Assembly (NCBI GenBank): GCA_025093555.1
Contig: JAIWNF010000030.1
Span: forward strand, 372,001-436,000
Direction: 5' to 3'
DNA from: Circinella umbellata
Lineage: Eukaryota; Mucoromycota; Mucoromycetes; Mucorales; Lichtheimiaceae
Length of the DNA: 64,000 bases
Part shown: in pieces, positions 3,057 through 3,916 of the stretch
Numbering within the stretch: the stretch's first letter is position 1
Layout of the letters: every line of letters starts with the position of its first letter
Notes under the pieces: generated by a model
The model's input: the letters and a program-made list of their open reading frames with translations, nothing else
Told to the model about the DNA's origin: nothing
The model's database searches: none
Translations under genes and position numbers: made by a program

Positions 3057-3916
3057 ATGGTAAGTTTTATTTTTTTATTATTACTAATAAATATTGTTTT
3101 CTCGGTATATATTCAATTAAAATGGTTTATAGTAAAAGTAAATTTAACATCTTTTTCTATTTCTTATTAATAGTCTGTCAATCCTAAAGCTTTCCCTCTT
3201 GCTGATGCTACTTTGACCAACACCATCTTGGATCTTATCCAACAAGCTTCTCACTACAAGCAACTCAAGAAGGGTGCTAACGAAGGTAAATAATAATTCA
3301 TTTATTCAATATGAATATATAGTTTATATGCTTATCTTGTTTTGTCAATGAAAACTTATTTTTAAAAAATATATCTTTTTAACTTTTATAGCCACCAAGA
3401 CTCTTAACCGTGGTATCTCTGAATTCATCGTCATGGCTGGTAAGTTTAAAAATTGGGAAGATCAACAATAACAAAAAAGAAAAGAATATATACAAAAAAA
3501 AAAGCAAATGATGAAAAATTTGCCTTTACTCCGGTGACAAACAGCAAACATGGACATGGAAAACGATTAGTCTTACTGAAGTGCTTTTTTATATACATAT
3601 ATATTCTTTTTCTTTTGTGTTAATTGTTGTTATGCAAAAAAAAAATTATATGTAGTTATGGTAACTGACTTTTTTTCTATAATGAATTGAAAAAATAATA
3701 GCTGATACCGAACCTCTTGAAATTTTGTTGCACCTTCCTTTGCTTTGTGAAGATAAGAACGTTCCCTACGTCTTTGTTCCTTCCAAGACTGCTTTGGGTC
3801 GTGCTTGTGGTGTCTCTCGTTCCGTTATTGCTACCTCCGTTACTTCTAACGAAGGTTCTGACTTGAAGCCCCAAATTCAATCTATCAAGAACCAAATCGA
3901 AAAACTTTTGATTTAA
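3057..3916 (+). CDS. SNU13: Snu13 / 15.5K (NHP2L1) K-turn-binding protein
   Basis: L7Ae-family protein of U4/U6.U5 tri-snRNP and box C/D snoRNPs; it binds the kink-turn of U4 snRNA and of box C/D RNAs and nucleates assembly (established). Four exons: 3057-3059, 3174-3285, 3392-3439 and 3702-3916, giving 125 residues against 126 in yeast and 128 in human. Recognisable blocks are NPKAFPLADATLT, HYKQLKKGANEATKTLNRG, SEFIVMAADTEPLEILLHLP and CEDKNVPYVFVPSKTALGRA, followed by GVSRSVIA. The first exon is only the start codon: ATG is followed directly by GTAAGT. All junctions keep frame. The third intron (3440-3701) is the longest and carries a box C/D snoRNA, described separately. Confidence 0.97.
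3500..3588 (+). ncRNA. Putative intronic box C/D snoRNA
   Basis: Inside SNU13 intron 3. A perfect box C (ATGATGA, 3508-3514) and box D (CTGA, 3576-3579) are flanked by a perfect 7-bp terminal stem, AAAAGCA (3500-3506) with TGCTTTT (3582-3588), about 89 bases in all. Upstream of box D, CGATTAGTCTT (3564-3574) is an 11-base perfect complement to a conserved large-subunit rRNA segment that I recall as AAGACTAATCG. The box D+5 rule points to the A following AAG in that segment. This is next to the G methylated by yeast snR60 / vertebrate U80 (from memory), a one-base disagreement that I cannot resolve. Convincing internal C' and D' boxes were not found. No expression evidence is available. Confidence 0.75.

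Follow-up and report, generated by a model that had tools for sequence, protein, structure and literature searches.

By target, the closest described relatives of the RNA analyzed here are CD39 of Neurospora and snR83 of S. pombe, its listed counterpart in Table 1 of PMC2780460. CD39 is marked in that paper as found by cDNA cloning. Its D' guide is directed at Am897 of the 26S rRNA and its D guide at A375, and the same table leaves Am897 without a counterpart in S. cerevisiae, Arabidopsis or human. The methyl group at this position follows from the guide rule, the available part of PMC2780460 presenting no mapping of it; no list of S. pombe rRNA sites was met in the available part of PMC4605285. 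CD48, the Neurospora homologue of snR60, is listed for Gm888, nine positions from Am897 (Table 1 of PMC2780460).

Core protein genes of the box C/D particle have been described as hosts of such RNAs. In the available parts of the papers on human NOP56, an intron of this gene carries SNORD86, an orphan C/D snoRNA that acts in cis on splicing. Fibrillarin genes of Arabidopsis reportedly carry a methylation-guide snoRNA (Barneche 2000), so a core protein gene would be the host there too, although it is another core protein in another lineage. According to the available parts of the reports on hosts in general, genes of ribosome biogenesis are over-represented among snoRNA hosts (PMC12309372) and fungal hosts include RPL7 and NOG2 (PMC8476143), while many hosts lie outside ribosome biogenesis (PMC10324135). 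Reports differ on the intronic share in fungi: their snoRNAs are described as mostly independent units (PMC12309372), whereas 45 of 55 C/D RNAs are intronic in Neurospora (PMC2780460).

We analyzed a window of 64,000 nt (the whole stretch of DNA under study) from Circinella umbellata (Mucorales, Lichtheimiaceae), in which intron 3 of the Snu13 gene very probably encodes a canonical box C/D snoRNA of about 80 nt, guiding to the 25S A that is the site of CD39/snR83. It is most likely a functional counterpart of CD39/snR83 and may share descent with them. The Circinella RNA resembles CD39 in being directed to the same large-subunit A, in being intronic and in its similar size (73 nt for CD39; PMC2780460). 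It differs in that its guide for this A lies at D and not at D', and the arrangement of CD39, a D'-guided site with a second guide to A375 at D, was not found in it; this comparison rests on the target and the features listed in the table, and the text of PMC2780460 does not name the host genes. With SNORD86 it shares a host encoding a C/D core protein, and it differs from that orphan in carrying an rRNA guide.

The Snu13 gene and its third intron

Splicing of the four coding exons (Table 1) gives a protein of 125 aa that agrees at every residue with the 'ribonucleoprotein-associated protein' annotated in Circinella umbellata and matches the Snu13 chains in the PDB, human and yeast included (E 6.1e-60 and 8.1e-59; best 6.1e-60). 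Identity to the Snu13 proteins of Zychaea mexicana, Phascolomyces articulosus, Fennellomyces, Dichotomocladium and Lichtheimia is 96-99%. The first-pass annotation had named the host as the Snu13 gene, and these matches agree with it. A search of the Circinella umbellata genome returned six Snu13 matches, two of them exons of this gene and four weaker relatives with 29-42% identity, and no second Snu13 gene was among the six. Fibrillarin-domain genes number two in comparison with the one Snu13 gene (L037 and L038; G000:C46 and C145).

Intron 3 is 262 nt long with GT..AG ends, more than twice the length of either of the other two introns (114 and 106 nt). It contains a branch-point-like CTGAC at 3665-3669, with 33 nt from the A to the last intron base, and its retention in the mRNA would lead to a stop codon soon after exon 3. 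The folding energy of the whole intron is mildly unusual (z -1.41; 16 of 200 shuffles were equally good).

Neither the genome-contig search nor the viral-contig search yielded the Snu13 locus of a Mucorales relative, and the viral-contig search yielded no eukaryote-like piece. The genome-contig search did return a eukaryote-like piece (L034), filed as a Gammaproteobacteria MAG, that starts downstream of intron 3. Positions 3-194 of this piece encode the C-terminal half of a Snu13-like protein with 77% identity, and it is probably eukaryotic contamination.

Table 1. Positions of the host gene, the snoRNA candidate with its flanking structures, and the snR60 copies found elsewhere in the genome
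Feature	Position	Strand	Remarks
Snu13 (15.5K / NHP2L1) host gene	3057..3916	+	four coding exons: 3057-3059, 3174-3285, 3392-3439, 3702-3916
Host intron (Snu13 intron 3)	3440..3701	+	GTAAGT..TAG; exon join reproduces annotated protein
Box C/D snoRNA candidate with full terminal stem	3498..3590	+	in-register boxes, stem and guide; tested by shuffling
Box C, ATGATGA	3508..3514	+	exact, read in sequence
Box D, CTGA	3576..3579	+	exact, read in sequence
Terminal stem, 5' arm AAAAAAGCA	3498..3506	+	9-bp duplex with 3582-3590
Terminal stem, 3' arm TGCTTTTTT	3582..3590	+	pairs with 3498-3506
Guide CGATTAGTCTT, D+2..D+12, complement of 25S/28S AAGACUAAUCG	3564..3574	+	D+5 = 3571, opposite predicted target A (yeast A917 numbering)
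External stem, 5' arm	3452..3493	+	duplex with 3597-3638
External stem, 3' arm	3597..3638	+	duplex with 3452-3493
Possible competing hairpin GCAAAU/AUUUGC	3504..3523	+	occupies stem arm and first bases of box C
snR60 copy L036:1493-1589	G000:C149	-	RF00309 60.5 bits; D guide TTCGCTCCTAT directly before CTGA
snR60 copy L035:1493-1597	G000:C1	-	RF00309 61.0 bits; D guide TTCGCCCCTAG, differs from that of L036

Boxes, stems and guide, and their rate by chance

The two boxes are 68 nt apart from C start to D start. They are enclosed by nine contiguous A-U/G-C pairs, which end 1 nt before box C and resume 2 nt after box D. The guide forms a duplex of -15.3 kcal/mol with the large-subunit (LSU) sequence, in which D+1 and D+13 are unpaired, and its 11 nt fall within the 10-21 bp range given for box C/D guides in the available part of PMC2780460, the LSU having been read outside Circinella umbellata. 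Between the boxes it is the sole complement of at least 11 nt to yeast 25S, even when G-U pairs are allowed; a second exact complement of at least 9 nt falls in a stem arm, and none was found outside it. Only degenerate candidates for D'/C' boxes were seen by eye, none of them clear. The RNA is probably a single-guide one. Its mature ends probably lie near 3503 and 3584. The first-pass annotation had already placed exact C and D boxes in this intron and an 11-base LSU complement just before D, and both were found again, the complement against contig L002 (positions 54-64) and against yeast 25S. The perfect terminal stem that it described is also present, at 9 bp and not the 7 bp given there.

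The arms of a longer duplex flank the snoRNA on both sides, a feature absent from the earlier description. This external stem reaches -25.9 kcal/mol, whereas shuffles averaged -11.4 (sd 2.6) and none of 1000 was as good.

When 3498-3590 was folded free of protein, the competing hairpin had a pair probability of 0.70 compared with 0.34 for the terminal stem. Of 5000 shuffles, 477 offered a 6-bp partner for the same hairpin arm and 2401 offered one for any such arm. From these rates the hairpin may lie within chance, and as a switch it was dropped, being not above chance.

The rate of such structures was measured by scanning the window and 20 stretches of 10 kb on both strands (528,000 strand-bases) for RTGATGA..CTGA at 45-110 nt. 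The stem test demanded at least 7 pairs and a score of at least 14 (G-C 3, A-U 2, G-U 0.5), and guides in the scan and shuffles were scored against the same yeast 25S as the sole rRNA. The scan gave 46 C..D pairs, and the pair in intron 3 alone passed the stem test. An 11-nt 25S guide was carried by three of the 46, namely intron 3 and two box C alternatives that share one D in L029 and have no stem, and the guide by itself is therefore not decisive. The minus strand of the window holds a second C..D pair, at 61407-61341, whose 8-pair stem contains many G-U pairs (score 8.5) and whose complement to 25S is 9 nt long; it is weak and probably a chance pair.

These numbers bear on the possibility that intron 3 merely contains box-like words and makes no RNA. 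An A/T-rich intron does produce poly-A/poly-T stems cheaply, the 46 scanned pairs include one further D with an 11-nt guide, and no Rfam family matched at gathering score, but this possibility is very unlikely. Dinucleotide shuffling of the intron produced a C..D pair in 109 of 20,000 sequences and, in two of these, a stem of that strength as well; in another set of 20,000, an 11-nt 25S guide appeared at a fixed D in 60. The joint rate of boxes with stem and of guide is about 3e-7, if the two are independent. Chance would also have to account for a target that coincides with a listed fungal site and for the external stem that no shuffle matched. The anatomy and the shuffles thus support the box C/D reading of the Snu13 intron put forward in the first-pass annotation.

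Across the 50.8 Mb genome, GATTAGTCTT followed by CTGA within 3 nt occurred at two places, compared with none for the reversed-pattern control, and the other place (C15) lacked TGATGA over the preceding 160 bases. The 10-mer ACGATTAGTC alone occurred 24 times, and its reversed control 66 times.

A covariance search, proposed earlier as a check, returned no Rfam match at gathering score in the 64,000-nt window. With E values up to 10, five weak matches fell in 3400-3720. Three of them were to C/D families (snoR16, SNORD24 and SNORD69) on 3496-3589; they lie on the expected interval and count as little proof. The top-scoring of the weak matches, plasmodium_snoR17 with 22.2 bits, lies elsewhere (3673-3720). 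Nine loci of related genes, each taken as the match with 1.5 kb per side so that genes are possibly cut, were also searched: one Nhp2-like (L005), three L7a-like (L006-L008), three with a Nop domain (L009-L011) and two with a fibrillarin domain (L037 and L038). L009 and L010 were picked by the Nop domain and are not split into Nop56 and Nop58. In these stretches Rfam gave no snoRNA and the relaxed scan gave one weak candidate, in L011.

The predicted target site and the relation to snR60

Two conserved patterns of LSU rRNA were not found in the 50.8-Mb Circinella umbellata assembly, from which rDNA may be missing. The target was therefore read in L002, a contig of IMG/VR, and in the yeast 25S sequence. 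The target segment AAGACTAATCG lies at L002:54-64 and at 914-924 of yeast 25S, with D+5 at A917. Bases 1-110 of L002 align without gaps to this yeast sequence (94 of 107 identical), and no LSU family of Rfam was matched by L002 at gathering score. The remainder of L002 reads by eye as a single-stranded RNA phage genome, and the contig is probably an assembly chimera.

The snR60 RNAs of the organism provide a fixed point for numbering. RF00309 matched two other places in the genome (Table 1), both above the cut-off of 41 bits, and the host of the L036 copy, read by eye, reads as an RPL5 intron. Counting by hand with the D+5 rule, the guide TTCGCTCCTAT of this copy points to the G at L002:48. 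The predicted target A is at L002:57, nine bases 3' of that G and not one base from it, as had been supposed. Am897 and Gm888 of Neurospora are separated by the same nine bases, and for this reason we take the predicted site as the equivalent of Am897 of the Neurospora 26S. It is thus already listed as a fungal target, in Neurospora and S. pombe.

The snR60 family (U80/SNORD80) is also box C/D, is directed to the neighboring rRNA segment and has a copy in an apparent intron of Circinella, but its guide and its target, nine bases away, are different. The closeness of the two sites could suggest that intron 3 carries a decayed or diverged snR60, a reading that we consider extremely improbable: RF00309 did not match intron 3 with E values up to 10, and two snR60 copies scoring above the gathering score exist elsewhere. 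Identity with snR60 was ruled out on these two grounds, and the intron 3 RNA is distinct from snR60 because the snR60 RNAs sit at two other places.

The snR60 copies also served as a positive control of limited strength for the scan. The snR60 pattern with the GGGG complement had 0 matches; a widened pattern had two, compared with four in the reversed control, and by itself means little, but Rfam identified both matches as RF00309. The relaxed scan listed L036 for its 11-bp stem (6 bases of its guide are exact compared with yeast) and L035 for its 13-nt guide. The stem of L035 has 5 bp, below the 7-bp test; the strict stem test is therefore conservative and would miss one of two true snoRNAs.

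Proposed release of the RNA and possible feedback on Snu13

The snoRNA would be released after splicing of intron 3 or through cleavage of the external stem, and the released RNA would be trimmed to the core protected by the snoRNP. RNase III is the enzyme that work in yeast would suggest for the external stem. Snu13, Nop58/Nop56 and fibrillarin would assemble on the kink-turn formed by the C and D boxes; the guide upstream of D would pair with 11 nt of 25S, and fibrillarin would 2'-O-methylate the A at D+5.

The RNA might, in addition, act in cis. When abundant, Snu13 and its partners would bind the C/D motif in the pre-mRNA and exert negative feedback of the NOP56/SNORD86 kind, either by delaying the splicing of intron 3 or by making the external stem accessible to an RNase III-like enzyme, and less Snu13 would be made. 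The product of the host gene is indeed the core protein responsible for binding of the C/D kink-turn, the external stem is strong, the stop codon met soon after retention of intron 3 would fit such an outcome, and the available parts of the NOP56/SNORD86 papers provide a precedent. We consider this feedback unlikely, since co-expression explains more simply why ribosome-related genes host snoRNAs, one snR60 copy lying in an apparent RPL5 intron, and SNORD86 is an orphan whereas the RNA of the Snu13 intron has an rRNA guide. The competing hairpin could give two states, but a partner for some such arm is found at chance level.

In a more specific and quite unlikely form, the intron would be a sensor of Snu13: free protein would compete with the hairpin for the C/D kink-turn in its own pre-mRNA, and the transcript would be diverted from splicing to release of the snoRNA by the snoRNP together with the external stem. 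If this were true, a protein common to the C/D snoRNPs and the U4 snRNP would set its own level while yielding a guide with a real rRNA target.

The probable guide RNA in intron 3 is itself of an ordinary kind, and the interest lies in its pairing with this host. No report naming Snu13/NHP2L1 as a snoRNA host was found in the literature searched, in the parts available, which is not a claim that none is in print. Because Snu13 both binds the motif and serves the U4 snRNP, mutual control of host and guest could be tested cleanly at this locus. If the reading is true, an early-diverging fungus would be added to those with a guide for an LSU 2'-O-methyl site for which Table 1 of PMC2780460 has no counterpart from S. 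cerevisiae, Arabidopsis or human, and one more gene for a C/D core protein would be found to host a C/D snoRNA.
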